NCBI GenBank assembly: GCA_030765455.1
Contig: JAVCCM010000067.1
Coordinates: forward strand, 1-64,000
Origin: Candidatus Electryonea clarkiae
GTDB lineage: Bacteria; Electryoneota; Electryoneia; Electryoneales; Electryoneaceae
DNA length: 64,000 nucleotides
Reading direction: 5' to 3'
The notes below the pieces were generated by a model. The model saw only the letters and a list, made by a program, of their open reading frames with translations, was not told the origin of the DNA and searched no databases. The number at the start of each line of letters is the position of its first letter. The stretch's first letter is position 1. Shown here piece after piece: positions 1,232 to 55,800 of this stretch. The position numbers were made by a program, and so were the translations under genes.

Positions 1232-1978
1232 TTATTTGTCAGTCCAATGAATGAATTTACGTTCAAACTTAATAAATCCTTGATTGAGCAGGTAGCCGAT
1301 TGCTCCGGTGACTATAATTGTTGCATACATTTTTGCGGAATCAAAAACTAAATGATAATCATATATTTTTTTTCCAAGTCCACTTTTTGATCCAATAAAC
1401 ATTTCAACAACTATTGTTAGCACTAAAGCCAACGAAAGCGCCGTCCTCATACCTATAAAAACTTGAGGTATTGAATCCGGAATTACAATCTTGAAAAACA
1501 CTTGTGCCTTATTAAGTCCATATACTTTCCCAACTATTCTTCTTAGGGTTGGAGCATTTAACACCCCGTAAACACTGTTTACAATAATTACTAAAACACA
1601 TCCATAAAAAGGCACTCCAAGTTTTGAGAGTTCGCCTATCCCCAGTGTTAGAAGGAACACTGGAAATAAAGCAATGGGCGGAATAGATCTAAAAAAATCT
1701 ACTAAAAATTCTAAACTCCTGTAAACTGGAGCAATATAGCCCATCAATAATCCAATCGGAATACCTATTAAACATGCAAAAATAAATGAAATTATTGTTC
1801 TGTATAGTGTCAACCCTATATGCAACCACAAATCAGCCTTTATGGCAAGGATATCAATTAATCCAGTTAAAACCTGTAATGGACTCGGAAGTATCAATTT
1901 GGAAATGGTGCCTAAACTAGCAATCAGAAACCAAATCAATAGAATGATTATTGGTCCGAGAATTCGGGTGAATTTCAC
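1232..1978 (-). CDS. ABC transporter permease, SsuC/TauC/ThiX type
   Basis: Integral inner-membrane subunit of a nitrate/sulfonate/taurine/pyrimidine-type importer (BPD_transp_1 fold), 248 aa as usual for the family. About six hydrophobic segments are visible, beginning with residues 7-27. A cytoplasmic EAA-loop-like stretch is present (VYGLNKAQVFFKIVIPDSIP, then G-M-R-T-A-L-S-L-A). The start is GTG and overlaps the stop of the upstream ATPase gene by 4 bp (GTGA), so translation is coupled. It is the last gene of the six-gene minus-strand operon beginning near 8.4 kb. The substrate is not predictable from this subunit; linked hydrolases suggest a nitrogenous compound such as a pyrimidine, hydantoin or ureide, which is inference. 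Confidence 0.9.
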   Translation of the reverse strand: MKFTRILGPIIILLIWFLIASLGTISKLILPSPLQVLTGLIDILAIKADLWLHIGLTLYRTIISFIFACLIGIPIGLLMGYIAPVYRSLEFLVDFFRSIPPIALFPVFLLTLGIGELSKLGVPFYGCVLVIIVNSVYGVLNAPTLRRIVGKVYGLNKAQVFFKIVIPDSIPQVFIGMRTALSLALVLTIVVEMFIGSKSGLGKKIYDYHLVFDSAKMYATIIVTGAIGYLLNQGFIKFERKFIHWTDK

Positions 1979-2757
1979 TTCCCTACCTCACTTCTGAATC
2001 TATTGAGTACATCTGTTCTCAATTTTACATATGGCTCTGCAGATAGCATTTCAAGTTTTCTAGGTCTGCTGAGAGGCACTTCATACCAACTTGCAACGGT
2101 TGCCGGTCTCGATGTCAGCAAAAGAACACGATCAGCTAAATAAATTGCTTCATCAATTTCATGAGAAATGAAAATCGTAGTTACATTAGTTTTCCCCCAT
2201 ATATCCTGCAAAATCTCCTGCATGCTAATCCGGGTTTGATAATCTAAAGAAGCAAAAGGTTCATCCAAGAGAAGTATGGATGGTCTTCGAATCATTGCCC
2301 TTGCTATACATGTTAACTGTTTCTGCCCTCCACTCATCTGGTAGGGATAACTATCTAATGGTAAATCAATATCGAGTTCTTCTAAAATCTTAAAAGATCG
2401 TTTTCTTCTTTCTTTCTTTGAAAATCTATTTTCAGCTTCAAGTGGTAACCCTATATTATCCAAGCAAGTTCGCCATGGAAGTAGTGATTTATCATAATTC
2501 TGAAACACGATGCCGATTGAAATAACATCTTCAGCATTGGATTTTATTGAGATGGTGCCTTCATCAGAGTCAATTATTCCCGCAATTAAATGTAATAAGG
2601 TGGATTTTCCACAACCATTTGGACCGAAAATACTTATAAATTCGCTTTCATAAACATCCATATCGAAATTAGATAAAACTTGGACTTTCTTGCCTTGTGA
2701 ATCATAGGATTTCTCTATGTTCTGGAGAGATAGTTGTGGTTTTAAATTGGAGGACAT
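1975..2757 (-). CDS. ABC transporter ATP-binding protein, SsuB/TauB/ThiZ type
   Basis: Cytoplasmic ATPase that energises the permease encoded next to it; 260 aa, normal for the family. Walker A is GPNGCGKST (around residue 45). The Q-loop is VFQNYDKSLLPWRT, the signature MSGGQKQ (Met replaces the usual Leu), Walker B LLLDEPFASLD and the H-loop ISHEIDEAIYLAD. All residues needed for ATP hydrolysis are present. ATG start at 2757; the ORF ends inside the GTGA overlap with the permease. It follows the binding-protein gene after 9 bp, so the three transporter genes form one transcription and translation unit. Confidence 0.93.
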   Translation of the reverse strand: MSSNLKPQLSLQNIEKSYDSQGKKVQVLSNFDMDVYESEFISIFGPNGCGKSTLLHLIAGIIDSDEGTISIKSNAEDVISIGIVFQNYDKSLLPWRTCLDNIGLPLEAENRFSKKERRKRSFKILEELDIDLPLDSYPYQMSGGQKQLTCIARAMIRRPSILLLDEPFASLDYQTRISMQEILQDIWGKTNVTTIFISHEIDEAIYLADRVLLLTSRPATVASWYEVPLSRPRKLEMLSAEPYVKLRTDVLNRFRSEVGK

Positions 2758-2766
2758 TTAATAACC

Positions 2767-4134
2767 TTATTTCTTCTCAAGGAAATCTTTTGGAATCATA
2801 ATGTTAGTAATCTCTACAGCTTTATCGATGATTTCAAGTTCAATAAACTTATCAGCAAGAGCTTGAATTCTCTCACGGTCTATTTCCTCCGTCGTCCAGT
2901 ACTCAGAATCATTCATTTTTAATGACATCTCAGGTGAAATCGGAGTATATTTCGCAATATAGCCTGCAATTTCATCTTCGTGTCCAGGTTGTCGCATATA
3001 GATTATTGCTTTTTCTAATGCTCTTATTATTTTTCTTGCATCATCTGGTCTTTCATTGATTAATATCTTCGAAAGTGCTGTTCCAGAGATTGGTATTGGA
3101 GGAGCAAAGATATATTTCAATGGATTTGCCACTAAGACATGAGCTTCACCGGTTTCAACAAGAGTTGTAGCCACAGGATCCATGCAATAAACTCCATCGA
3201 CTCTGCCAGCTGATACCGATGATTGCATTATAGCTGGTTTTAATTCTAAAAAACTGATTCCGCTTAAGTCTAATCCAAAGTATTCAAGAACTGCTTTGGA
3301 AAAACCACGCACTGCCGAACCTGGATGGAGGCCGACAACATGACCTTCGAGCTGTTTCAGACTATCAATATCTGATCCCTTTCGAGCGAGAATGTAGTCA
3401 GGAAAACTATTATCTTTCCAGACTAACATGTTCACAAGTTCAAATCTGTCGGGATCTTTTGATTCTACAGATAATGCAACTTCCATATTAGATAAACCGG
3501 TAGCATCCAATTTACCAGCGATCATTGCCTGGATCATCTGATTCGCTGAAACAAACGGTCTAACTTCAACCTTTACCTTTTCTTGATCAAAGTATCCTCT
3601 CTCAATTGCAGTGAAAAGATGACGGTATAGAGCTATTTCCTGGTAACCAATTATCACATGATTTGACTTTGTGTTGGATTTGCATCCTGAGATAAAAAAT
3701 GCACTAACGTATAGACACAACACGATGATAACAAGCCCCCAACCTAGTCTTATTGCATATAACAATCGTTTTGTGTCATCGTGTTTCAACTGTTCTTTCT
3801 CGAAATCTTCTTTAATTTCCTTACGTTTCTTTGGAAGTTTCACAGGTCCCTCCTTACAATTTTCTTCTTTCTGTTGAACGATTAACTCATCGTTTAATTC
3901 TAATAGTTTATCCAAAACTCGACGTCTTTCTAGAAAACAGAAAATAACTACAGACCAATAAACCAATACAATACCGAAAATAACTGGTAACAACTCCCAT
4001 CGATCCGGTACTTTTAAATTCAGTATTACACTACTGGTAATCAAATTGATGCCAGCACTACCTAAAAGTGTACCCCATATAGTTATTACAACTTCTGACA
4101 AAAGAAGCAATCTTCGAAATGTCAAAGACACCAT
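2767..4134 (-). CDS. Membrane-anchored NMT1/SsuA-type substrate-binding protein with N-terminal extension
   Basis: Residues about 158-455 are a periplasmic binding protein of the SsuA/NMT1/THI5 class (IIGYQEIALYRHLFTAIERG at its start, later GLHPGSAVRGFSKAVLEYFG and VDGVYCMDPVA). Unusually, about 150 residues precede it. They comprise two hydrophobic segments (about 9-38 and 48-68), a charged, partly coiled-coil cytoplasmic-looking stretch (69-125) and a third hydrophobic segment (128-150) ending in FISGC, which looks like a lipobox with Cys151. An ancestral lipoprotein binding protein therefore seems to have been fused to a membrane/coiled-coil module. Starts by TAATG overlap with the CHAT gene. 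Ordinary SsuA-type proteins are about 300-340 aa with only a signal peptide, so the extension may contact the CHAT protein or the transporter (inference). Confidence 0.88.
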   Translation of the reverse strand: MVSLTFRRLLLLSEVVITIWGTLLGSAGINLITSSVILNLKVPDRWELLPVIFGIVLVYWSVVIFCFLERRRVLDKLLELNDELIVQQKEENCKEGPVKLPKKRKEIKEDFEKEQLKHDDTKRLLYAIRLGWGLVIIVLCLYVSAFFISGCKSNTKSNHVIIGYQEIALYRHLFTAIERGYFDQEKVKVEVRPFVSANQMIQAMIAGKLDATGLSNMEVALSVESKDPDRFELVNMLVWKDNSFPDYILARKGSDIDSLKQLEGHVVGLHPGSAVRGFSKAVLEYFGLDLSGISFLELKPAIMQSSVSAGRVDGVYCMDPVATTLVETGEAHVLVANPLKYIFAPPIPISGTALSKILINERPDDARKIIRALEKAIIYMRQPGHEDEIAGYIAKYTPISPEMSLKMNDSEYWTTEEIDRERIQALADKFIELEIIDKAVEITNIMIPKDFLEKK

Positions 4135-6773
4135 TATGTAATCTCCATAACTTCAATAAATTTTCGCGCTTCATCAGTAAAATCTTGTGTAATTTCTTTA
4201 ACCACAACACCTGTAATTTTTGTCCTTTTACATAATTCTAATGTGAGTTTTTTGAGGTCTGAACTATCCATACTTTCTCGCTTATTCAGCTGATCTAAGA
4301 AGAATTGTTTCATTACCTCAAGGTTTTCCGAAAATATGCTTTTTTGTTTTTCTGTTCCTTCAATCTTTGTTTGGTAATTACCTATATAATCTTTCAACTT
4401 TTGAATAGAAATATGATTTCTAAAAGCGAAATTATCCCAATCGAATACTGAAGGTAGATTAAAGAAATTTGATTCAGCAATGAGTTTTATGGCAAGTAGA
4501 TGGTTTGGATCGCTTTTGCTATAAGACAGCAAAGGTAAGTCCTTTTCTGATTCATATCTTATTGTTTTTGAGCCTTCATTTTTGATCTTAGATACTCCCG
4601 AATTATATTCCGCAAAAAATTCTTCAAAAAAGGGTTTCCATTCATGATTTGCAAGACTACCTCTTTTGCAAATAAAAATCCCACGTGGAATTATTTTACC
4701 AGGCAACTCAAGAAGACTTGCTGTTACATCTTCGATATTATTGCTTATAATATTATAAGCATGGTTTTTTGATAAATCTATGAGATCATTTCCCAATAAA
4801 AGCACACAATCATATTTATTGATATTCCTTGTCACCAGTATATTATTAAGTTTTTCAATCGACAGAATTTCAATTTCATTAATTATTTTAATATATTCTT
4901 TGTCTATTTGATCATTTTTTATTCCTCCATTTTCTAATAAAATATGCTTGATAAATGTTCTAATCATAAATGTTGAAGTCAATTTCTTTTGTAAAATGGC
5001 AATATTCATTACTTTCTTATCTTCAAAAGACTTAATAAGCATACTCTTAAATTCTTGAAAATTCTTAATGTTCTTTGAGGCTAATCCAATCGATCCACTT
5101 GATGCAAATGCAGGACCGAGAATGACATAGTTCGAGTCTTCAACGCATAATCTTATAGCTGTCGCTAAAGGTGCGAGTCCTATTTCGATTTCCTCATCAC
5201 GCAATGCGAAACTCGTAATTGGAGTGACAGTTTCATATTTGATAATACGATATGTTAATCCACCTTTAGGGTTGATCTCTAATTCATCGAAGGATGGCTG
5301 CCATCTATCGGTTATAATTAACTTGACAGGAAGTATATTATCTTTGGTTCTTGAATCGTATGGAAGGCTGAGATGTGCTCTGACATCACCGAATATACAT
5401 AGCGATGTTTTCTGATAAAGTTCACACATTTTCTTTTCATTCTTATCATCTCCATTTACTAAATCATCCGTAAGGACTTGAGCTTGGAGAAGACTATGTG
5501 AAACGAATTGATTTCCCTGATTTTTTAAGACCGTCATCAGAAAATCATTTGCTGATGATCCCTCAACATCTGATAAAAGCGAGAAATTTGATCCGACGAA
5601 AAGTGAGCCCTTACTTATATACTCTAGGATTGTAGCACCGTGGTCTTGCATTACTGCGGACCTACAAGCGTTCATAATAATCAAACTATCCTTACAATTA
5701 TCGGGAGGGATTGTATTAAGTAGTGGTGCACCAGTTAAGAAACCGGTGACCCATCTACTATCCTTTTTCAGAAAATCATGGACAGTCAATCCCTGTTCAT
5801 TGTCAAAATAAATATTTGCTACATGTAGATTATCAACGAGTTCGCAATCCCAATGTCCATTATAAAAGATTAGATTAGGAGATATTGTAGATCGTGATGA
5901 TATTAGATCACGCACCTGTATATCTGTTATCCCTTGGAAGGAGCGCCTAGTATCAAAGTCTCCATTTTCTTTGATTGAATTTAATTGATCAATATTTTCA
6001 ATTTCACCATCAAGAAAATTCCATTTGCATGAATCCTGATTAAATAAGGATAGTAATATTTCAATCATTTCCTCTTTAAGTGGGAATGAATTAAGATCAA
6101 AAGTCGGGCGAGTAATTGTTAGAATCTTTAGATCATCAAACTTTAACTTGGGTGGATATGTGTCTCCCAAAGAGGATATTGCAAAAGCATAGCGACAGCA
6201 CCAGATTGATTTTTGGTCTGCGGTTCTGGATAGCCACCAGGGAATGTTTAGTAAATCCTCTCCAATTCTTATTTGAAGTAATGGAATTTCATATTTTCTA
6301 TCTTCTTGTGATTTTAAAGCATTTAATGTAGGGAAATCTACAATTTCTTGAAACTTATCCCAAAATATGTCGTTTTCCAATGGCATTATATTATAATATA
6401 TTTTTTTCGAACACTTAAGTATGAATCTCCCTAACTCTACTCTATATCTTGTTTTCGCTATATTTAATTCATCTACCCATTCCTGTGAACTCAAAATATT
6501 TCGAACTTCATCTCCGAAAATTTCATCTTCTGGGGATTTGGATTTCAGAGACTTAGCAAGTATTTTATGCACTTGATTCCAATAATCTTTTTCTCTTTGC
6601 TTTATACCACGATGATAATAATTGACTAAGCTATCAATTTCTCTTTTTGTAATCTTTCTTTCTGCTTTCGTTATTTTTGTGCTTTCCCAGTTTTCAGACA
6701 GATTGAACTGAATTTTTGATTCTCCCGACCTCAAAATTTGAAGTCTTAATCGCTTTTGCTCTTTGGTTGACAT
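4134..6773 (-). CDS. CHAT-domain cysteine protease fused to a cytoplasmic substrate-binding-protein-like domain
   Basis: 879 aa with no signal peptide. Residues 1-130 are charged and helical. Residues about 160-470 match a CHAT (caspase-like, clan CD) domain: LLNIPWWLSR and RYAFAISS strands, the His motif LIFYNGHWD (His307) and the Cys motif LIIMNACRS (Cys370), so the catalytic dyad is intact. Residues about 480-740 read as an SsuA/NMT1-like binding fold, with EIEIGLAPLATAIRL followed by GPAFASSGSIGLASKNIKNF and a second lobe. The last 140 residues are helical and unrecognised. ATG start preceded by AAGGAA. It lies between the isochorismatase and the membrane binding protein in one operon. 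Inference: a ligand-sensing protease tied to transporter status. The SBP-like call is by eye and less certain than the CHAT call. Confidence 0.8.
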   Translation of the reverse strand: MSTKEQKRLRLQILRSGESKIQFNLSENWESTKITKAERKITKREIDSLVNYYHRGIKQREKDYWNQVHKILAKSLKSKSPEDEIFGDEVRNILSSQEWVDELNIAKTRYRVELGRFILKCSKKIYYNIMPLENDIFWDKFQEIVDFPTLNALKSQEDRKYEIPLLQIRIGEDLLNIPWWLSRTADQKSIWCCRYAFAISSLGDTYPPKLKFDDLKILTITRPTFDLNSFPLKEEMIEILLSLFNQDSCKWNFLDGEIENIDQLNSIKENGDFDTRRSFQGITDIQVRDLISSRSTISPNLIFYNGHWDCELVDNLHVANIYFDNEQGLTVHDFLKKDSRWVTGFLTGAPLLNTIPPDNCKDSLIIMNACRSAVMQDHGATILEYISKGSLFVGSNFSLLSDVEGSSANDFLMTVLKNQGNQFVSHSLLQAQVLTDDLVNGDDKNEKKMCELYQKTSLCIFGDVRAHLSLPYDSRTKDNILPVKLIITDRWQPSFDELEINPKGGLTYRIIKYETVTPITSFALRDEEIEIGLAPLATAIRLCVEDSNYVILGPAFASSGSIGLASKNIKNFQEFKSMLIKSFEDKKVMNIAILQKKLTSTFMIRTFIKHILLENGGIKNDQIDKEYIKIINEIEILSIEKLNNILVTRNINKYDCVLLLGNDLIDLSKNHAYNIISNNIEDVTASLLELPGKIIPRGIFICKRGSLANHEWKPFFEEFFAEYNSGVSKIKNEGSKTIRYESEKDLPLLSYSKSDPNHLLAIKLIAESNFFNLPSVFDWDNFAFRNHISIQKLKDYIGNYQTKIEGTEKQKSIFSENLEVMKQFFLDQLNKRESMDSSDLKKLTLELCKRTKITGVVVKEITQDFTDEARKFIEVMEIT

Positions 6774-6794
6774 TTTTAAATTCCTTACTAGATT

Positions 6795-7460
6795 CTAAAA
6801 CATTTTCAATATCTCTTCCAAATTTATCACATCAGCATATTTCATGTGCATATCCCATAGGCTTACCAAATGGGAGAGTTCAAAACGGTCAAATGTGCAA
6901 TCTTCGATGACAAAAACAGTGAAATTATTTGATAACGCATCAACTACCGTAGCTCTAACGCATCCGGAAGTGCTCGTTCCGATGACCAGCAAAGTATCTA
7001 TTTTCATTTTATTTAGAATCAAAGCTAATGACGTTCCAAAAAACGCGCTTGCTTTTGTTTTTCTAATAATTAGATCATTTAAATTGGGTTTAATTTCCTC
7101 AACAATCTCCTGAGATTTTGAATCCCATTTTTCATCCGGTTTCCAGATCTTATCTGGTCCGCCTGTAAATTTTGTAACTGATACATCATTTGTGGTATAT
7201 ATGACTGGTATATTTTTGTCCCGACAAACATCTATGCATTTTTTGATATGATCTAACGCCACCCAACCACTCTTCCCGCAGCTTGTCCTATATTTATCGG
7301 TCGATTCCAGTTTGTCAGCCCCCTTTAATCCAAGAAAGGCATTATTGACATCAACAACAATCAAAGCTGGTCTACTTCCAAACATCTGTTTTTTACCAAA
7401 CCCTGCCTTTTCTGCTAACGCACGATCTTCAGCAGTAAATATTTCTTCCCACTTCTTCAC
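6795..7460 (-). CDS. Isochorismatase-fold cysteine hydrolase (N-carbamoylsarcosine amidase/ureidoacrylate hydrolase-like)
   Basis: 221-aa cytoplasmic hydrolase of the isochorismatase-like superfamily, whose members mostly cleave C-N bonds of carbamoyl, ureido or nicotinamide-type amides. The catalytic triad is visible: Asp37 in ALIVVDVNNAF, Lys134 (or Lys136) in IIRKTKASAFFGT, and Cys167 in GTSTSGCVRATVVDA. The start is GTG at 7460, with GAGGT eight bases upstream. It sits 21 bp upstream of the CHAT gene and 62 bp downstream of the PuuE-like deacetylase. Co-location with an NMT1-type importer suggests it degrades the imported nitrogen compound; the exact substrate cannot be read from sequence. 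Confidence 0.88.
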   Translation of the reverse strand: MKKWEEIFTAEDRALAEKAGFGKKQMFGSRPALIVVDVNNAFLGLKGADKLESTDKYRTSCGKSGWVALDHIKKCIDVCRDKNIPVIYTTNDVSVTKFTGGPDKIWKPDEKWDSKSQEIVEEIKPNLNDLIIRKTKASAFFGTSLALILNKMKIDTLLVIGTSTSGCVRATVVDALSNNFTVFVIEDCTFDRFELSHLVSLWDMHMKYADVINLEEILKMF

Positions 7461-7522
7461 AAATATTTACCTCATGTTTTTTTTATCTTTAAGATAAGCA
7501 GACTAGTTTTCTTCAGTTCATC

Positions 7523-8395
7523 CTAACGCTTGTTGTTTTCCTGTTCAAACCAATTAGCAATATCTCCACTTGTGGTTAACCATACGTCGTCATGATTTTC
7601 AATATACTTTAAGATTCTATCAAACTCTTTGATTCTAAAAGGTTGTCCGATAATGAACGGATGTAAACCAATGCACATCACTCGTGGATTGATGCTTCCT
7701 TCCTTATAAAGCGTATCAAAGTTTTCTTTAAGAATCTGAAAGTAGTCTTCTGGACTAAAATTTTGAATTAAAAATAGCTTATAATCGTTAATTTCAACAG
7801 AATAGGGAATTGATATCATTTTGCCATTTTCTACTTTCATGTTAAATGGCTGGTCATCACAACACCAGTCACAGACATAAGAAATTCCTTCCTCAGAAAG
7901 TAAATCAAGCGTAGCAAACGTTTCCTGCAAAGCAGGACTTAGCCAACCTCGTGGCTGTTGTCCTGTTGATTCAGTAATTGTATCCACACATGATCTAATA
8001 ATTTTCTTCTCTTGTTGTTCACTCAAACCATTAAGCAATACAGAGTTACTATTACCATGACCTAAAAACTCCCATTCAAGTTTTTTCCCATGTTCAATGA
8101 TCTCAGGATAGTGATCACATACATCTGAATTCAATAGAACAGAGGCTTTCACACCATATTTTTGTAGAATTTCGGACACACGCCAAATACCAATACGATT
8201 ACCGTAATCACGAACGGAATAATCAAAAACATTCGGTGGTTCTACTTTAAACGACTGTATCCCCCCAAATTCTACTAAATTAATATCAAAATACTCGATA
8301 TTGATTCCCACCCAAACAGCTATTTTTGCATTGTTTGGAAGAATCAGTTTTTTTCTCAAATTTATTGGACAATATTTGTATCGTAATTTATCCAA
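7523..8395 (-). CDS. Polysaccharide-deacetylase-fold hydrolase, PuuE/allantoinase-like
   Basis: NodB/CE4-fold protein of the PuuE-like group, which in characterised cases acts on cyclic amides such as allantoin rather than on sugars. Family blocks are clear: KIAVWVGINIEYFD, RDYGNRIGIWR, LLNSDVCDHYPEI, EFLGHGNSNS, TGQQPRGWLSPA, CDWCCDDQPF and LHPFIIGQPFR. The usual CE4 D-D pair is replaced near the N-terminus (IEYFD), as in PuuE relatives. There is no ATG. The frame is open to a TTG at 8443, but I prefer the TTG at 8395, which has AGAGGAAG six bases upstream and gives the usual N-terminus (about 24 residues before the first strand). The extra 16 codons overlap a 16-bp inverted repeat. First gene of the operon. 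Confidence 0.85.
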   Translation of the reverse strand: MDKLRYKYCPINLRKKLILPNNAKIAVWVGINIEYFDINLVEFGGIQSFKVEPPNVFDYSVRDYGNRIGIWRVSEILQKYGVKASVLLNSDVCDHYPEIIEHGKKLEWEFLGHGNSNSVLLNGLSEQQEKKIIRSCVDTITESTGQQPRGWLSPALQETFATLDLLSEEGISYVCDWCCDDQPFNMKVENGKMISIPYSVEINDYKLFLIQNFSPEDYFQILKENFDTLYKEGSINPRVMCIGLHPFIIGQPFRIKEFDRILKYIENHDDVWLTTSGDIANWFEQENNKR

Positions 8396-8417: not shown

Positions 8418-8868
8418 GGGCGGGTGACACTGTCTGATTCCAAAAATGGAATATTTTATATCTTCACCCGCTCTAATAGGTTTCCTTCACATATTAATCA
8501 GATACTATATAGATAATTTGCTAAAATATACAATATATTAATTCTTGTTGTAAAGTGTATTTCTTCAATTATTACGAAATCCCTGATAAATGGCTCTCGG
8601 AGGAGAACTCAACTGCTTATTATCAGGACACCTGCCGGGAATCATTCTCCAAATAATTATTTCCCTTTTCGTTCTCAGTTAGGATTATATACCTGTCATT
8701 TGTATATTTAGATTATCCCCGCAGAAATTGTGTTTGCCACTGAATCCTTATGCAAAACAAATGAGCCGAGAAAAAGGATTGATTATGAAAAAGATCCTCT
8801 GCAATCCATGTCTGTTTTAGTACAATATTAAATTTAGTTTGTACATCAGCAAACAGTGTCACCCGCCC
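8418..8868. repeat. 16-bp perfect inverted repeats bounding a 451-bp AT-rich segment
   Basis: The bases at 8418-8433 (gggcgggtgacactgt) recur in exact inverse at 8853-8868. The enclosed stretch is AT-rich with no convincing ORF. It may be a non-autonomous element that landed just upstream of the operon and now supplies its leader, or two copies of a short palindromic repeat. From 8869 to 9100 I see no gene; a short region at 8926-8945 resembles the GGGGGCGACTGACAGCACC unit of the 837-971 insertion in reverse orientation. Confidence 0.5.
8525..8554 (-). promoter_or_regulatory. Candidate sigma70-type promoter for the six-gene operon
   Basis: Read on the minus strand: TTTACA at 8554-8549, an 18-bp spacer, and TATATT at 8530-8525. 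It points toward the deacetylase gene, about 130 bp from the preferred start. The surroundings are very AT-rich, so chance matches are likely. Confidence 0.3.
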
Positions 8869-43834: not shown

Positions 43835-46800
43835 CTATTTCACCAGTACAATTTTTCTGATTGCACTGGTCTCACCGGGTACTATTGCAGTGACAAAATA
43901 AATACCGCTTGAAAGATTACCTGCATTGTAACTTATCCTGTGATACCCGGCATTATACCCGCCATTGGCGATTTCTGCAACTTTTCTTCCAAGGGAATTG
44001 TACAGGTAAACTATTAAATCAGCTTGATTCGGCAGACCTACCACAATCTGTGCGTTGGCATTAAATGGATTAGGGAAGATTGTCGAAATATCGAAGCTTT
44101 CGGGAATACCCGCCCATTGATTGAAACGTCTGTAAGAGAACGGGACATAGAAGCTTTGAGTTTCTTCCGCCCAGGTTCCTTCTGTATTACTGTCATTTGC
44201 ATAAACACTCCAGTAATAAGTACAGGCGTTAATTAATGGATCAGCTAATGTGAAAGTAGTTTCTGCAATATCTTCCGCAAGCATCCAGCTATTCAACATA
44301 TCTGGTAGAGTGTCCAGCATAACGTTAAAGGTCAGGGTGTCATAAGGATCAGGATCGTAAGTTGACTCCCAGATCAAATATACCACACTGTCGGGAATTG
44401 CTCTCGCGTTGACAGGAGAGACCAATTCGAATGATACCGGTTCTTCTGGAACATTAATATCGAATGACCAGCCATTTGCAGGAATGGACATGGTTTCCAT
44501 GCCATACAAATCTAATGCGCAAACTCGCCAGTAAATCGTAATATCATCAAATATATCATCAAGTGAGTATCCTGTAATCACAAAGGAGGTATCGGATGTA
44601 ACTTCCTCATTTTTGAATGCAAACAGTGAATCGGCAGACCACTCGACCCTGTAAGAAATCCTGTCTCCCGGATCTATATCTGTTGAAGAACTCCAGGTAA
44701 CGCGAATTCTTTTTGAATCAACTTCTGTCCTGTCAGCAAGCTCTAATAAACTGATGGGCGCTGGCGCTTCAGGGACATATACGTCAAAGTTTATGGCACT
44801 CCTCGACCAGATATCCTCACCGTCTGTATCATCATCTCCAAGGGCGAGCACCTTCCACCAGTACTGGGTATCATCCTCGAGTTCAGTTATTGTGAAGCAG
44901 GTATCGGCAACAGTATTGAAGTTGACGAATCCTGAATCGCTGGCAAAAGACGGATTAGTACTCCACCAGACCTTATAATTCTGCTCAGCATCAGTTCCCT
45001 GAATTTCAATAGATTCCCATATAACTTGAACTTCATTATTCCAGACAGTGTCACCAACGGCTGGAGTCAGCAGACTGAATCCTAACGGTTCACGCGGAGC
45101 TGCCAGGTAGAATCTGTTAGTCTGCGATGACCAGGTTCCCTCAGTATTTGTATCTTGAGCACGAACCTTCCAAAAATATTCATGGTCGTCAGAGATTCTC
45201 GGCAACCGAAGGCTAATGCTGTTAACTACAGCAGAATCAACATTTGAAGAGAATGTGGAACTCGTTGAGTACCACACCACGTAATGAAGATTGTCACCCG
45301 GATCAACGTCCCTGGAACGCTGCCAGGAAAGGGTAATATCATTTTCTTCTAAGAATTGACCATCTTCAGGGCTGACCAGGTCAAACGCTGCGGGTGGATC
45401 GTAGATATAAACCTGGAACGAAACGCCGTCCGGCTCATTATCAACAAAGGTCTCCAAGCCATAAGTATCTATGGCGCGAACACGCCAATAAATCACCAGG
45501 TCATCCGGTAATCCATCGAGTTCATCGGTTTCTGACGAACGTGAATCAGCGTTTTTTCGCCCTCGGATATTGCTATTATTTCCCTGGAGTTGATTTGCGG
45601 ACGGTGTCATTCCCGGGCTTGACCCTGGAATGATATTTCGTGCGCTGTTAAGGGACAATAATTCATTTGCATTATTCGATATTTTTTGATGCTCTATCCC
45701 GGGACTATTCTTCATCGCAATTGAACCGGAATTTCCATTGCCCGGTGGTTTATTGTTAAGCGCCATGAAAATTCCTGATATGTCATCTAACTCATAAGTG
45801 GTATCGGTCAGGGTCTCGACAATGCTAATAATGAAGCTTTGGTCTAATGAAATCTCGAGATAGTAAGAAACGGAATCTTCAAGATCGGTATCGATTGCCG
45901 GTTCCCATATCAACAATGCAATATCTTCATGAATCTGTCCGCCATTCAAAGGACTGATGACGCTGAATGCGTCCGGTGCATTTGGAATATTGCTGACAAA
46001 ACTTAAAGCCTGGTTAGACCATGTTCCTGTCGTGTTCAAATCCTGTGCGCGTACTTTCCACCATATATACGAATTATCCTCATATCCGGTAATAACACCT
46101 GATGTATCGGGTGTTGATGTAGAATCCACTCCTGTCAGGAATAGTGAATCACTGGAGAACCAGATAGAGTAATAAATCGAATCTCCGGGATCAGGATCAA
46201 TTGTGGAGTGCCATGTAAGATTCATCTCCCCGGTAAAATTGGTGTCTTCTTCCGATGGAATCAGGTCGAATGCTGCCGGCGGTTCGCTCATATAGATTTC
46301 AAAAGTCCAACCTGTCGAAGGAGTGGATAATGTTGCCAGGTTGTACGTATTACGAGCAATCACACGCCAGTGAACAATGATATCATCCGGCAATTCTGCC
46401 ATCGGACCTTCAGGCAGTAAATCTTCGAGTGCAGTTATTACAAAGAATGTATCATCTGTTGTGCCACTGAAATAATCCGAGAAATCTTCAGTCAAGGACC
46501 ATATTACATTGTATGAAATACCTTCTTCATTTGGATCTTCAGAGCTATGCCAGCTGACAGTTACTGTGTCATCATCAAATAGACTCCCGCTATCCGGACT
46601 TGCCAGTGAAAATTCAGAGGGAGCTAATGGACTGTAAGATGCAAGCCTTCTTGCTTCATTACCCCAGGTTCCATCAGTATTTGTATCCTGTGCGCGCACG
46701 TTCCACCAGTAAATAGCGTTTCCGAGGCCAGTAATATCAGCAGTGGTGGTGTCTGTAATTACCGAATCGACCGGCTGTGTGAAATTCTGATCCAAAGCCC

Positions 46801-49800
46801 ACATCAGAACATATGTAATCGTATCACCCGGGTCAGGATCTGTCGTAGCTTCCCATGTCACCGTAGTGTCACCATCCCAGCAGGTATCGCTGTCTTCCGG
46901 TGTCAACAAATTAAACGCCAAGGGCGGGTCATAAATAAATATATCAAATGAATAACCATCCACAGGCGAAGCGGATGTTTCAAGGTTATATGAATCCTCC
47001 GCGACCACACGCCAGTAAACAGTCGTATCATCGGGAAGTTCATCAATATCACCCAAATCGGGTATCACGAAGAAAGTATCGGTCGTAGTTCCACTGAAGT
47101 AAGGATCAAAATTGCTAATGCCAGACCATTCAACCCGGTAGGATACAGAATCATCCGGGTCGTCATCTAATGAAGTACTCCAGGAAACCAAAATCGAATC
47201 ATCATGTACTATTTCCCCGCTGTCAGGCGTTGCGAGACTGAATGCTAACGGTGCATCGGGTATGTAAACAAAGAACCGGCTTGTGTCGTTTGACCAGATT
47301 CCTACGGTGTTTTCATCCTGTGCGCGAACTGTCCACCAGTAAGTTTCAAGATCACTCAATCCGCCCAAGTCATAATCGGTGTCTGTGGTTGATGCGGAAT
47401 CGAGATTTTCAGTGAAGTCAGAATCTGTTGCCCACCATACCCAATAAGTAATTTCATCACCCGGATCGGGATCAATAGATGCTTCCCAGGTTAAAGTAGT
47501 ATCCCCAGACCAACATGTGTCATCGTTTGCTGGGCTGCTTAAACTGAATTCACCCGGTGGATCAAAAAGATAGACATCAAAGCTGAAACCTTCTGCAGGT
47601 GTAGCCTGGGTTTCAAAACCGTAATTGTCAAACGCTTTTACACGCCAGTAAACAGTAGTATCGTCCGGTAGTTCATCAAGATCATTAAAGTCGGTAATCG
47701 TAAAAAATGTTTGTGTAGTAACATTGGTATAATTGTCTTCAAAATCCTCATTCTCCGACCAGTCCACTCGATATGCAAAAAAATCACCGGGGTCCGGGTC
47801 GGATGATGCCGTCCATGAAACAACAACGGTATCATTATTTACTTGTACACCGTCTTCCGGTAAATCAAGCGAAAAAGCAACTGGTGCTTCAAGTTTATAG
47901 ACTACAATGGATAGCGTATCGTCTGCCCAGCTTTCAAGTAATCCTGGATCGCGAGCTCGAACTGTCCACCAGATCGTCTCATCATCTGTCAGGTTTGTAA
48001 CATCAAGAGAAGTATTTGTCGTCGAAGCTGAATCGAGATCTTCTGTCAAATCAGAATCCGTCGCCCAGAAAACAGTGTAAGTTATCTCATCATCCGGGTC
48101 GGGATCAACCGCGGCTTCCCAGGTGAATGTTGTATCGCCTGTCCAGCAGGTATCGCCATCACCAGGGTTCGTCAGACTGAAAGATTGAGGTGTTTCATAC
48201 AAATAGACATTAAATAACCATCCTATCTGAGGCGAAGCAGAAGTCTCATTATTAAATTCGTCAATTGCTTTAACCTTCCAGCGAATTGCAGTATCATCGG
48301 GAAGCTCGTCAATCTCGCCATTTGCAACCATGTCTTCCAGATCGGTTATTGTATAGAAAGTATCAGTTGTTGTGGCTGTGTAAGTATCATCGTCACCATC
48401 AATTCCCCATTCAACTTCATAATACAATTCATCATCAGGATCGTTATCATCTGATGAAGTCCATACTACTGTTACAGTATCATCATGCACCTGCGAATTA
48501 TTCGGCGGGCTGCTTAAAACGAATGTTGCGGGGTTTTCCGGGATATAAACTTCAAATGACCATGTTTCGTCTGACCATGTTCCGACGGTATAATTATCCT
48601 GGGCACGGACTTTCCACCAGTATGTCTCGTCATCGGTTAGTCCTGTCAGATTCTGTTGTGTGTTATTTGTAGAAGCCGAATCAAGATTTTGAGTAAATGC
48701 TGAATTCGTTGCCCACCAGACTTTATATGTGATTGCATCGCCCGGATCAGAATCTGTTGCGGTTTCCCATGTAAGCGTAGTGTCGCCTGTCCAGCAGGTA
48801 ACGCCATCATCAGGCGAAGTCAAACTGAATGCGTTTGGTACGTCCGGAATGAATACATTAATTGTGAAAGTCTCATCAGACCAGGTTCCCTCGGTATTTT
48901 CATCCTGTGCTCGAACCTTCCACCAGTAAGTTTCATCATCTATCAGGTTTGCCAGGTTCCGGGTTGTACCGGTTGTTGATGCTGAATCGAGATTCTGGGT
49001 GAAGTTGGCATCCGTCGCCCACCAGACCTTATAAGTGATATTATCGTTTGGATCAGGATCGGTAGTGGCTTCCCACGTAATAGTCGTATCGCCTGTCCAG
49101 CAGGTATCACCACTGCCGGGTGTAAGCAGGCTGAATGCTGCCGGCGGATCATAAACAAATATATCAAATGACCATCCATTTGAAGGAGTGGCATCTGTCT
49201 CAAGACCGAAAATATCTGTTGCGGTTACACGCCAGTAGATGGTTGCATCGTCAACAATGCCTGTGATTTCATAAGAAGTATTTGAAGTTGTTATTATGGA
49301 GGAATTATCAAAGTTTGCGTTAACTGCCCACTCAAGAGTATAGGTTACCTGATCGTTGGGGTCGGGATCAGTTGATGTTGTCCATGATACCGTAACGGCC
49401 TCGTCATTAATCGCTGAACCGCTGTCAGGCGATGAGAGATCAAAACTACCAGGCGCTTCAGGAATATAAACATCGAAATCAAGAATATTGTCCGACCATG
49501 TCCCCTCTGTATTGTTGTCACGCGCATGTATCTTCCACCAATAAGCGGCGTTATCTGTCAAATTCGTAAGCGCATAGGTGGTATCAATGGTAAATGCCGA
49601 ATCAAGGTTCTGGGTGAAGTTTGAATTTGTAGCCCAGAATATTGCATAGTTAGTTGTGTCGAGAGGATCGGTTTCTACCGCTACTTCCCATGTTAAAGTT
49701 GTATCACCGGTCCAGCAGGTATCTCCGGTGCCGGGATACAGAAGACTGAAATCAGCCGGTGGATCATAAACGTAAAGAACATGAAAACGCCATCCGGCAT

Positions 49801-52800
49801 TAGGCGTACACAACTTCTCAAGTCCGAAATTGTCAATAGCTGTCACACGCCAATAGACCGTAGCATCATCTGGCAATTCGTCAAGATCGCCCTGCCCGAT
49901 TTGATCTTCGAGGCCTGTTATTATCAAGAATGTATCAGTTGTAGTGGCTTCGTAGGTCAAGGTGAAGAGGCTGTCTTCACTCCACTCAACCAGGTAATAG
50001 AAATCGTCACCCGGATCGTTATCGCTTGATGGTTCCCAGACTACGGTTACAGTATCCGTATTAAAGAGTGTATCCGCTGAAGGAGAAAGGAGATCAAAAT
50101 CTTCCGGCGCTTCGGGGATATATACATACAGCCGGTGTGTTTCATCCGACCAAGTGTTATTTGAGAAAATATCGACCGCCCGGACTTTCCACCAGTATTG
50201 AGTATCATCATTCAGCCCGGAGAGATAGTATGAAGTTGAGTCCACACTTACAGAATCAAGGTTTTGTGTAAATCCGGAATTTGTAGCCCACCAGACAACA
50301 TATCTTACAGAATCATTCGGATCAGGATCAGTGGAAACTTCCCAGGTCAGTGTTGTATCACCGCTCCAACATGTGTCGTTAACTCCCGGTTCCAGCAAGC
50401 TGAAGTCTTCAGGATCTTCCTGCACATATACTGTGAACTGGTATGTTTCATTAGACCAGGTTCCATTCGTATTGGAATCCTGGGCTCGTACTTTCCACCA
50501 GTAGATGGTATCATCATCCAGGTTGGGAATGGTGTAGCCGGTATTAGGTGTCGAAGCAGAATCGAGGTTTTGAGTAAAGTTCTGATCAGTTGCCCACCAT
50601 ATTTTGTAACTATCAACATCATCACCGGGATCAGGATCGCTGGAGGCTTCCCAGTCTAAAATAACATCATCAGTCCAGGATGTATCGGTGCTGTCCGGAG
50701 AAATCAGGCTGAACGCTTCCGGCGGTTCAAAGATATATATGCTGAAAGACCAACCATCCTCGGGGTCTGCCCAGACATCATTCTGGAATTGATCGGTAAC
50801 TTTTACATGCCAGTAAACAGTGATATCATCAGGCAACTCATCCAGGCCGCCTTCGCCAACCAGGTCTTCAAGGTCAGTGATAGTTAAGAATGTGTCTGTA
50901 GTAGTGCCTGTATAAGATTCGCCGAAATCTTCATCTGTTGACCATTCCACGGTATAATAAATCCAGTCGCCGGGGTCAGTATCCGATGAAGCTGTCCATG
51001 CAACCGTTACAATATCGTCATCAAACTGTTCACCGTCATCAGGGCTGGCAAGCTCGAAATCTTCCGGCGGGTCAGGAATGTAAACGTGAAAATTGTATGT
51101 TTCATCCGACCATGTTCCAGTGGTGTTCGTATCCTGCGCACGGACTTTCCACCAATATTGTGTGTCGTCGGAAAAATCATTCAGAGCAATTGATGTGTTT
51201 GCCGAAGAAGCTGAATCCAGATCCTGTGTGAAGTTGGAATCAGTCGCCCACCAGATCTTATAGGTAATGTTATCCCCTGTATCCGGATCGTTGGACTGTT
51301 CCCAGGTAAACGTAGTATCACCTGTCCATGTGGTATCACCATTCTCGGGTGAGACAAGACTGAATGAAGATGGCGGCTCAAAGATATAAACGTCAAACGA
51401 CCAGCCATCTGTCGGGGTGGCATATACTTCATTATCGAAGCTGTCTGTAACTTTTACACGCCAGTAATAAGTTTCCTCATCATCCAGACCGGTAATCGAA
51501 TAAGTGGTATCTGTCAGGTTCGCTGTTGATGAGCCTGTGAAATCATCGTTCTGTGACCATTCAACCGTGTAGGTTATTTCGTCGTTTGGGTCAGGATCGA
51601 TAGAGGTTGTCCATGCCAATGTAACATTGTCAACATTGATAGTGCTGGTATTTGCCGGGCTTGAAAGACTGAAAGCACCCGGATCTTCGATGATGTAAAC
51701 TACCAGGGTATTAGTCTCGTCTGACCAGGTACCCTCTGTGTTATCATCCTGTGCCCGGACTTTCCACCAGTGAGTTACATTATCTTCAAGATTGTTTATT
51801 GTCAGTGTGGTATCTGTCGTAGATGAAGAATCGAGATTTTGAGTGAATTCGTCATTCGTCGCCCACCAGAGCCAATAAATAACATCATCACCAAGATCAG
51901 GATCGGTGGATTCTTCCCATGTAAATGTAGTATCACCTGTCCAGCAGGTATCACCATCGCTTGGGGAAAGCAAGCTGAAATCAGTGGGTGGATCATATAT
52001 AATTACGTCAAACGACCAGCCATCTTCAGGGTCGGCGTATGTTTCATTATCAAAACGGTCTGTAGCTTTTACACGCCAGTAATAAGTCACCTCATCTTCA
52101 AGGTCGGTGATATCGAAACTTGTGTCTGCTGTTGTGCTGATTGACGATTCGGTGAAATCATCATTTTCAGACCACTCAACTGTATATGTAACATGATCGC
52201 CCGGGTCGGGATCGATTGAAGTAGTCCATCTCACAACCGCATGAGGGTTATGGACTTCAGTGTTATTCTCGGGGCTGGAAAGATCAAAATCTCCGGGTGG
52301 ATCGGTGAAAAATACATGAATCTGTCTTGTCTGAGTTGACCAGGTACCGTTGGTATTACCATCCAGGGCTCGCACTTTCCACCAATATGTTTCATCATCG
52401 GAAAGATCAGCCAACGCATAGGAGGTATCGATGGTGAAAGCAGAATCAAGAGCTTCAGTGAAGTTTTCATTGGTTGCCCACCAGATCATATAACCCTCAA
52501 CCTCATCACCCGGATCGGGATCAGTCGTTGATTGCCAGCTTAAATCGGTGTTTCCTGTCCAATTGGTATCACCATCTTCCGGGAACAATAGATTGAAAGC
52601 TGCAGGAGGATCATCCTCGTAATTGAGATAAAAAGACCATCCTTCTTCCGGTGTGCCGTATGTTTCTAAACCATAATTATCCCGTGCTCTAACACGCCAG
52701 AAAAGTTGAATATTATCGGGCAATTCATCAAGCTCACCCTGACCAACAAGGTCTTCGAGGTCTGTGATGGCAAAAAATGTATCCGAAGTTGATCCGGTAT

Positions 52801-55800
52801 AATATCCGTCAAAACCTGAATCAAGGGACCAGTCAACATGATATGTAGTAGGATCATTATTATCGGGATCAGTCGCAGCATCCCAGTAAACGGTAACTTC
52901 ATCTTCCTCTAATAGACTTTCATCCGCCGGACCGGCAAGATCAAAATCACTTGGCGGTTCCGGAACATTTACCCAGAATGACCATGTTTCATCCGACCAG
53001 ACGCCGGAAGTATTATTGTCTTGTGCTCTTACCTTCCAGTAAAAAGTTGTTTCATCAGCTAAATTAGTCAGGGTATAAGTAGTGTCACCGGTTGAAATTG
53101 AATCAAGGTTCTGAGTGAAATTAGCGTCTGTCGCCCACCATAGCTTATACTCTATCCAATTGTCGGGATCCGGATCGATAGCTGTTTCCCATGCCATTCT
53201 TGCAGTATCGGCTGTGATCGTATCCCCATCACCAGGAGATAAAAGGCTGAATGGTTCAGGTTCATCGATAAAATATACACTCAAACGGAAGGTTTCATCG
53301 GATAGCGTACCATTGGTATTCTGATCCTGCGCCCGAACTCTCCACCAGTAAGTATTATCTTCTTCCAAATCCTCCAGGTCATATTCTGTATCGAATGTTG
53401 TTGCTGAATCAGCATCTGAAAATTCATCGTCAGTTGACCAGTACAAACGGTAAAAGACAAAATCGCCGGGATCGGGATCCTGCGTATCTTCCCAGGTAAA
53501 AGTTGTATCACCAGTCCAGCTTGTATCACCGTCTGCCGGCGAAATCAAGCTGAATGCATTAGGACTGTCGTACATAAATACCTGGAAATTCCATCCTCCC
53601 GTAGGTGTACAGTTCCTCGAATTGTCAAAACTGTCTGTTGCTCTTACCCGCCAGAAAATTCTTGTATTGTCGGGAAGCTCATCAAGCTCCCCCTCTTCCT
53701 GCTGGTCTTCAAGGTCAGTAATCAGGTAAAAATTATCTGTGGTGGTACCTTCGTAATAGTTAGCGAAATTCCCCTGTGTTGACCATTGCACAGTATAAGT
53801 AATGACATCATGAGGGTCAGGATCATTCGCCGCCAGCCATACTACTGTGACTGTATCATCATAAACACGCTGGTTACTCGAGGGACTGAAGAGCACAAAA
53901 TTACCGGGCGATTCAGGAATATATACTCTTAAGCGCCTGGCCTGGTTAGACCATCTTCCAACTGTGTTGTCATCCTGGGCGCGGACTTTCCAATAGTAGT
54001 TTTCGTCATCATCCAGGTTTTCAAAAGTATAGGAAGTATCTGTCGTTGAAACGGAATCAACATCCCAGACAAAATTCTGGTCGAGAGAAACCCAGAGCTT
54101 ATAAACAATATCATCACCATCTGGATCTGTAGTGGATTCCCAAACAAAAGTCTGGTCACCATCAAATGTCGTATCGTTATGACCCGGAGAAATCAGGTTA
54201 AAGGCAGAGGGAAAATCTGCAATTCCAACAGTGAACGACCATCCATCTTCAGGAGTAGCGTAAGTGAATGCCCCAAGTCGGTCAACAGCTTTTACCCGCC
54301 AGTATATTTCGTCATTATCGTTTAATCCCGAGATCGTGTACTGGTCGTCAGCAGTAGATGCGGTCTCAAAGTCTTCGAAATCTTCATCTAATGACCATTC
54401 AACCCAATAGGTAATCATGTCATTATTGTCAGGATCAGTTGATTGATCCCAATAAACAGTAGCTTGAAAACCCTCGATATTAGCGCCATCCTCCGGTGAA
54501 TCAAGGCTGAAAGCGCCGGGGGCTTCATTCAGGAATGCCACAACCGAAAGTGTATCCTTTGACCAGGTTCCCTCTGTGTTGCTGTCCGTTGCTCGAACCG
54601 TCCAGTAATAAGTATGGTCATCAAGCAGATTGTTAACATCAATCGTACTGTCAGCACTGCTGTCTGCTATCTGCCAGGCTGTGGATAAATCCTCCGTGGT
54701 ATCCAACCAGACATCATAATGGGGAACATCATTCTCGTTTATATCCCAGGTATGATCCCAGGTAAGTGTTGTGTCGAGGGTATGGCAGGTATCGCCTCCT
54801 TCAGGAGACAACAAGTGGAATGGAAGCGGTCGTTCCTGAAAGCTGGGAAAAGCTCCCATATCCGCGACAGTTGAATCAGGATCAAGCGAACTTTCCGGAT
54901 CTCCTGCATCTACGGCAGGCGATCCTTCTTCGAGACCATAATCACCGTTTACCGGATCAATCAGTTGTGGATCAATGTAAATATTGTAATAGACGTCCGA
55001 GGAATCATAATTCGCATTTATTGTAGTCAGATCACCGATGCCATCGGGGATCTGACCCTCGAAATTGCCATCATCGTGATTATAGACGGTATTGTAGCGG
55101 AAAGTCAGGGTGCTTGCATCATCATCTCGCCAGAGACCCTCACCATTTGTGGAACCTTCCAGGATTGAGTTTATACATTCAAGTTCAGCGTCTTCACCAA
55201 TAAATATACCACCGCCATCAGGAGCATCGTTTCCGGAAATCGTCGTTTTATCAATTTCCATATCAGTGAAATCGTCAATAAATATTCCGCCCCCATCACT
55301 GTTGGCGCTGTTGCCGGAAATCAGGCATCCCTCTATCTCCGGGTCGGAGTTGTCGATAAAACACAAACCTCCGCCTGCACCACTGGCATTATTTTCGCTG
55401 ATAATACATGAATAAAGCTCAGCGTCGGATTGAAGCCCATAAATGCCCCCGCCATCATCGTCACAGGAATTATCGACGATTTCAGTGCCAGTAATCACTG
55501 GTGCGGCATTTGACAGATATATTCCGCCGCCATCCCGCTCCGCATCATTATTCTCAATCTTACATCCCGTTATTATCGGGCTGCCGTTGATTACATATAT
55601 ACCGCCGCCTTCACCGTATCGATTCCAACTGGAATTTGCTGTATTCCCTGTAATTGTGCAATTGGTTATCACAGGTGAAACGTCTGCGTTTATACAAATC
55701 CCACCACCATAACCTGCATCATTACCGGTAATAGTGCAGTTTGTAATGGTAGCGGTTCCTTGTACTAATATACCGCCTCCAGCCCCATTTTGCGCATCGC

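Follow-up and report, generated by a model that had tools for sequence, protein, structure and literature searches.

In the 64,000-nt stretch of Candidatus Electryonea clarkiae DNA analysed here (GCA_030765455.1, contig JAVCCM010000067.1, positions 1 to 64,000; hereafter the window), a six-gene operon on the minus strand (8395-1232) encodes an 879-residue orphan protein (4134-6773, minus strand) that combines a predicted CHAT-type protease domain (residues ~1-470) with a domain resembling type-II substrate-binding proteins (SBPs; residues ~480-735), followed by a helical tail. The remaining genes encode an ABC importer and two hydrolases. This architecture appears to be undescribed in the literature searched: its parts are known and no relative of the whole was found. 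No paper combined “CHAT protease” with “substrate-binding”, and the sole paper pairing “CHAT domain” with NMT1 was an unrelated fungal genome paper.

The N-terminal half (residues 1-486 as aligned; 5316-6773, minus strand) is very probably a CHAT-type cysteine protease, as predicted from motif placement and from weak profile scores that exceed their controls. The His307/Cys370 dyad noted in an earlier, sequence-only reading of this DNA is intact, with His307 in NGHW, following LIFYNG, and Cys370 in NACRS, following LIIMNA. A MAFFT alignment with 17 N-terminal-type CHAT domains, one from the same genome and the rest from genomes G097, G010 and G011, placed W179, H307 and C370 in invariant columns with no manual adjustment. 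A HMMER profile of this N-terminal-CHAT subfamily gave a best score of 2.3 bits, higher than 500 of 500 shuffles, and hhalign with the subfamily profile scored 23.4-25.8, while sets of 100 shuffles each peaked at 21.8-22.6. Natural sequence gave a similar picture: the hhalign CHAT score was 23.1 against a maximum of 18.3 among 43 natural segments of the window, and it was confined to the N-terminal half. The signal came from the subfamily profile alone; none was obtained with a broad CHAT alignment, and hhalign in global mode returned a meaningless alignment of 9 columns. PADLOC gave a single sub-threshold line for the protein (PDC-S11, E 0.019).

Residues ~480-735 probably adopt a type-II binding-protein fold, judging from profile comparison and modelling, and support for this is stronger than the sequence-only reading had assumed. 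When compared by hhalign with 41 NMT1/SsuA-type proteins, residues 505-610 aligned in register with a score of 28.0; no shuffle scored above 19.2. Of the 43 natural segments 42 scored lower, and the single segment that outscored it is a periplasmic binding protein. An AlphaFold model of residues 466-760 (4494-5378, minus strand), built with SBP rows, reached a pLDDT of 70 (80-93 in the core) and a pTM of 0.64. Its best Foldseek match was TauA (E 7.7e-8), and matches at 1e-7 to 1e-5 comprised TauA, SsuA, a Parabacteroides ABC binding protein, probable MqnA, Thi5 and PqqT, with TM-scores reaching just 0.4-0.5. The full-length model had no homologous rows in this region, and there helices 597-614 and 713-732 and strands 656-660 and 698-702 match those of the second model; the agreement may be taken as a partial, non-circular check on the predicted fold. 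Pfam PF09084 and PF13379 did not match the C-terminal half at E 10, and a home-made SBP profile scored -0.1 bits in HMMER, a value matched by 3 shuffles, so HMMER alone lends the SBP call no support. Type-II folds are also found in cytoplasmic enzymes and regulator domains, and for this reason a ligand-binding role is something we infer.

Several results weigh against this two-domain reading. Pfam PF12770 (CHAT) matched neither the whole protein at E 1 nor either half at E 10, and there was no significant NCBIfam or PDB sequence match. Consequently the CHAT call, earlier described as firm, is not so, but the invariant-column motifs and the profile scores above controls keep it likely. The canonical PWE motif reads PWW. 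The full-length AlphaFold model, made with CHAT rows, is poor (pLDDT 45, pTM 0.34); strands directly precede His307 and Cys370 in it, and its closest Foldseek matches, metacaspase-4 and caspases at E 0.008-0.2, are in line with the caspase-haemoglobinase fold of clan CD and so weakly favour the CHAT call, though none of them is significant. Structure prediction of the C-terminal part did yield type-II SBP-like matches (TauA, SsuA), but that model is partly circular because it was built with an SBP alignment. The fused domain lacks the EP motif that follows a conserved Asp in most SBPs. It is also no nearer to the SBP encoded beside it (10% identity) than to other SBPs (9-17%). These figures do not establish a shared ligand, and on them an origin of the domain as a copy of the neighbouring SBP was rejected.

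Homologue searches belong on the same side of the balance. They covered relatives (sets of 193 and 386 genomes, the larger largely including the smaller), the 39 available genomes of the phylum, the phyla of genomes G039 (1), G097 (400), G084 (291) and G065 (195), and genome contigs, viral contigs and plasmids. No homologue of the 879-residue protein was detectable in these ~1,300 genomes, plasmids and viral contigs, or in an 85,000-species pattern scan, which reaches close relatives only. Beyond the protein itself, matches were at chance level (E 0.004-0.5); among the ones looked at were what seemed to be an ABC ATPase and an ORF resembling a methyltransferase. With neither a curated match nor a homologue, there is no evolutionary evidence of selection on the dyad or the pocket. 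A scan of the same genome for CHAT genes recovered two others and not this one. The search for CHAT+NMT1 fusions that the sequence-only reading had proposed found the pairing, in the same frame or in adjacent genes, at none of 42 CHAT loci read with ~4-5 kb flanks; the exception of sorts was a 3e-4 NMT1 match in another ORF, confined to residues 23-57, which resemble a signal peptide. The nearest relative of the importer, in candidate division KSB1 BS750m-G25 (G039; L064/L070), has the same SBP-ATPase-permease gene order and is 34, 42 and 43% identical in these three proteins, respectively. Its 11-kb contig carries no CHAT gene and no such hydrolases, and the protease is thus not a general component of the transporter.

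The setting of the gene is clearer. The six co-directional genes form a confirmed operon with intergenic spacings, in transcription order, of 62, 21, -1, 9 and -4 nt, in agreement with the small overlaps and short gaps first described. The first gene (7523-8395, minus strand) encodes a NodB-fold hydrolase of polysaccharide deacetylase/PuuE allantoinase-like type (Pfam PF01522, 4.6e-8) and likely starts at a TTG at 8395, with AGAGGAAG upstream. Its nearest NCBIfam model is PuuE allantoinase (TIGR03212), at 151 bits far below the equivalog cut-off of 424.6. The second (6795-7460, minus strand) encodes an isochorismatase-family cysteine hydrolase (Pfam PF00857, 1.8e-33) nearest to RutB and biuret amidohydrolase, scoring 52 bits against NCBIfam RutB, under the cut-off. 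The 879-residue ORF comes third and overlaps the binding-protein gene by 1 bp (TAATG). That gene (2767-4134, minus strand) encodes an SsuA/NMT1 binding protein that carries membrane helices at its N-terminus (Pfam PF09084, 4.9e-15, residues 173-381; NCBIfam SsuA_fam, 1.6e-25, 90 bits, under that model's cut-off). The importer ATPase (1975-2757, minus strand; Pfam PF00005, ABC_tran, 6.3e-29), whose nearest NCBIfam models are SaoA/NtrCD/TauB-like and each below cut-off, overlaps by 4 bp (GTGA) the gene for a permease of SsuC/TauC type (1232-1978, minus strand; Pfam PF00528, BPD_transp_1, 4e-17). By Pfam and NCBIfam, the SBP, permease and ATPase of an SsuABC/NMT1-type importer are therefore together in one operon, and the families of the two hydrolases beside them are likewise confirmed. 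Because no importer or hydrolase gene reaches any NCBIfam cut-off, no specific substrate can be assigned; the nearest models (PuuE, RutB, biuret hydrolase) suggest a ureide or N-heterocycle.

No signal peptide was found on the 879-residue protein, as originally noted, and no transmembrane (TM) segment; it is thus predicted to be cytoplasmic, unlike a true transport SBP. The SBP encoded beside it has an N-terminal extension of ~120 residues that had escaped remark, consisting of TM 9-27, TM 48-66 and a charged loop (67-128), followed by a TM anchor (130-148). The positive-inside rule places this loop in the cytoplasm, alongside the protease. The extension is missing in the nearest relative (L064), a plain 330-residue lipoprotein. 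An in-frame GTG at 3843 (codon 98 of 2767-4134), preceded by AAGGAGGG, is a possible internal start that would give an SBP without the 2-TM extension. Downstream of the KSB1 importer (L064:7660-8292) lies a gene for a 210-residue 2-TM protein; as a counterpart of the extension it was set aside, its one match being a weak hit to DUF4231 (0.01).

If both domains are what they seem, what would a cytoplasmic protease with a binding-protein domain do in an import operon? The SsuA/NMT1-type importer would bring in a nitrogen-containing ring or ureide-type compound, which the PuuE-like enzyme would open or deacetylate and the isochorismatase-type amidohydrolase hydrolyse. The SBP-like domain may recognise the compound once imported, or something derived from its breakdown, and thereby gate the CHAT protease in the cytoplasm. 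The protease substrate would probably be local, the best candidate being the 2-TM segment and charged loop (~residues 67-128) of the membrane-anchored SBP, whose cleavage would reset uptake. The 879-residue protein and this SBP come from one operon and their genes show tight translational coupling. Control of the importer by a ligand-gated CHAT protease is proposed because there are precedents for cytoplasmic NMT1 domains (see below), because CHAT-first layouts are established and because the SBP loop is placed in the cytoplasm. We hold it tentatively, at somewhat less than an even chance, and the switch as a whole, including its ligand, gating, substrate and physiological role, is what we infer. 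The stronger claim, of a new class of small-molecule-gated bacterial proteases in which a cytoplasmic SBP domain switches CHAT to edit the SBP of its own importer, is very improbable. A CHAT protease built on a nutrient-type binding domain in a catabolic operon would extend such proteases to direct metabolite sensing and offer a simple two-domain system in which to study ligand-gated proteolysis, a claim held back for now by the singleton status of the protein.

Bacterial CHAT and caspase-like proteases are known mostly as effectors of death or immunity that respond to nucleic acids, to proteins of phages or to protein partners. The protein might be a conflict or cell-death effector that has hitch-hiked into a metabolic operon or is guarded by it, its SBP-like domain sensing a toxic or phage-linked small molecule and its CHAT domain hitting a vital target, after the manner of STAND-CHAT and TPR-CHAT systems; the protease target would then be one of cell suicide. 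The CHAT relatives found do occur in STAND/TPR, NACHT and SIR2 proteins, and the DNA itself is unusual. The GC content of the operon is 33-37% against 43% for the window, its GC3 is 27-34% against 46-54% in neighbouring genes, and a MITE-like element (8418-8868, no strand assigned; 19-nt terminal inverted repeats, 95%) lies just upstream of the operon start. Such composition and flanks are expected of acquired DNA, and the operon was likely acquired by transfer. However, no defence or mobile-element gene was identified beside the operon, where PADLOC lines were sub-threshold only, no adapter or pore-forming partner was seen, and the remaining genes make up a coherent import and hydrolysis set. 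An effector role is unlikely, although it is the most credible of the alternatives. Downstream of the operon there are palindromic repeats at 387-454, 550-622 and 836-901, and the repeats flanking this AT-rich segment include a perfect 24-nt inverted repeat, TGTAGGGGCAGGATTTATCCGCCC, and a triple TTTGGTGCTGTCAGT. Elsewhere in the window (43835-56224, minus strand) lies a gene for a 4,129-residue protein that has fibronectin-III repeats and a Por secretion tail.

Slightly less credible is a degenerating or fast-evolving orphan with neither protease activity nor a binding domain, its resemblance to both families marginal. This would account for the lack of curated-family matches, the low confidence of the full-length model and the changed EP and PWE motifs, but the long frame is unbroken, the other operon genes are intact, both catalytic residues are kept, and each profile scores above shuffles and natural decoys in the half where it should and not in the other. 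Weaker again, and improbable, is the proposal that the C-terminal domain, rather than a sensor, is an enzyme or structural relic of type-II SBP-like fold (MqnA-, Thi5- or phosphoribosyltransferase-like) that CHAT processes or scaffolds: Foldseek matches at ~1e-6 to probable MqnA entries (7an*, ‘enzyme of biosynthetic pathway’), Thi5 (4esx) and ATP-PRT (6czm) speak for it, whereas transport binding proteins match best and NMT1 domains on kinases and CheA resemble input modules.

The ligand-gated CHAT protease preferred here can be compared with several known systems. Proteins that begin with a CHAT domain and continue with a second one are well established, as in CHAT+SIR2 and CHAT+STAND/TPR. 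In the N-terminal CHAT domains of STAND/TPR and SIR2 proteins such as L068, L158 and L144, the Trp motif, His and Cys come in the order seen here, ahead of the second module. They differ from the 879-residue protein in matching Pfam PF12770, and their C-terminal modules are STAND/TPR, HEAT/NACHT or SIR2, never NMT1-like among the 42 loci. The same genome encodes ordinary CHAT-STAND-TPR proteins unlinked to the operon (L067:2944-6252, L068:6607-10410). In genome G097, which has at least 14 CHAT genes, one of these (L144:4528-6639) encodes an N-terminal CHAT domain with a C-terminal SIR2-like domain (SIR2_2, 4e-25). The proposed gating may be likened to that of TPR-CHAT (Csx29) in the type III-E CRISPR Craspase, where a sensor, fused or bound, controls CHAT allosterically; the TPR part and Cas7-11 RNA trigger of that system are both missing from this operon. 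No gasdermin, TPR or Cas7-11 partner is present among the six operon genes, all of which belong to other families (no gasdermin search was made outside the operon), and the earlier remark that TPR and gasdermin partners are lacking here holds.

Among SsuABC/TauABC/NMT1-type importers the nearest relative, the KSB1 system, lacks a protease and such hydrolases, and its SBP carries no TM extension. A binding-protein-like domain in the cytoplasm does have precedents. The regulatory domain of NrtC, from the cyanobacterial nitrate importer, is akin to the binding protein NrtA. This C-terminal domain is cytoplasmic, has a putative nitrate site and is encoded in the importer operon (PMC6603209). In NrtC it is fused to the ATPase, whereas in the 879-residue protein the partner is a protease. 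Closer to home, contig C98 of the same genome (L065:4917-10151) encodes a 1,744-residue hybrid histidine kinase with an NMT1_2 domain (6e-57) between PAS and HisKA, followed by receivers and Hpt, and apparently cytoplasmic. In genome G135 (L066:501-3533) an NMT1 SBP is N-terminal to a CheA-like kinase with no evident export signal. As in the proposal made here, a cytoplasmic NMT1 domain is the apparent input module in both proteins; the output is a kinase rather than a protease, and these precedents favour the sensor half of the model.

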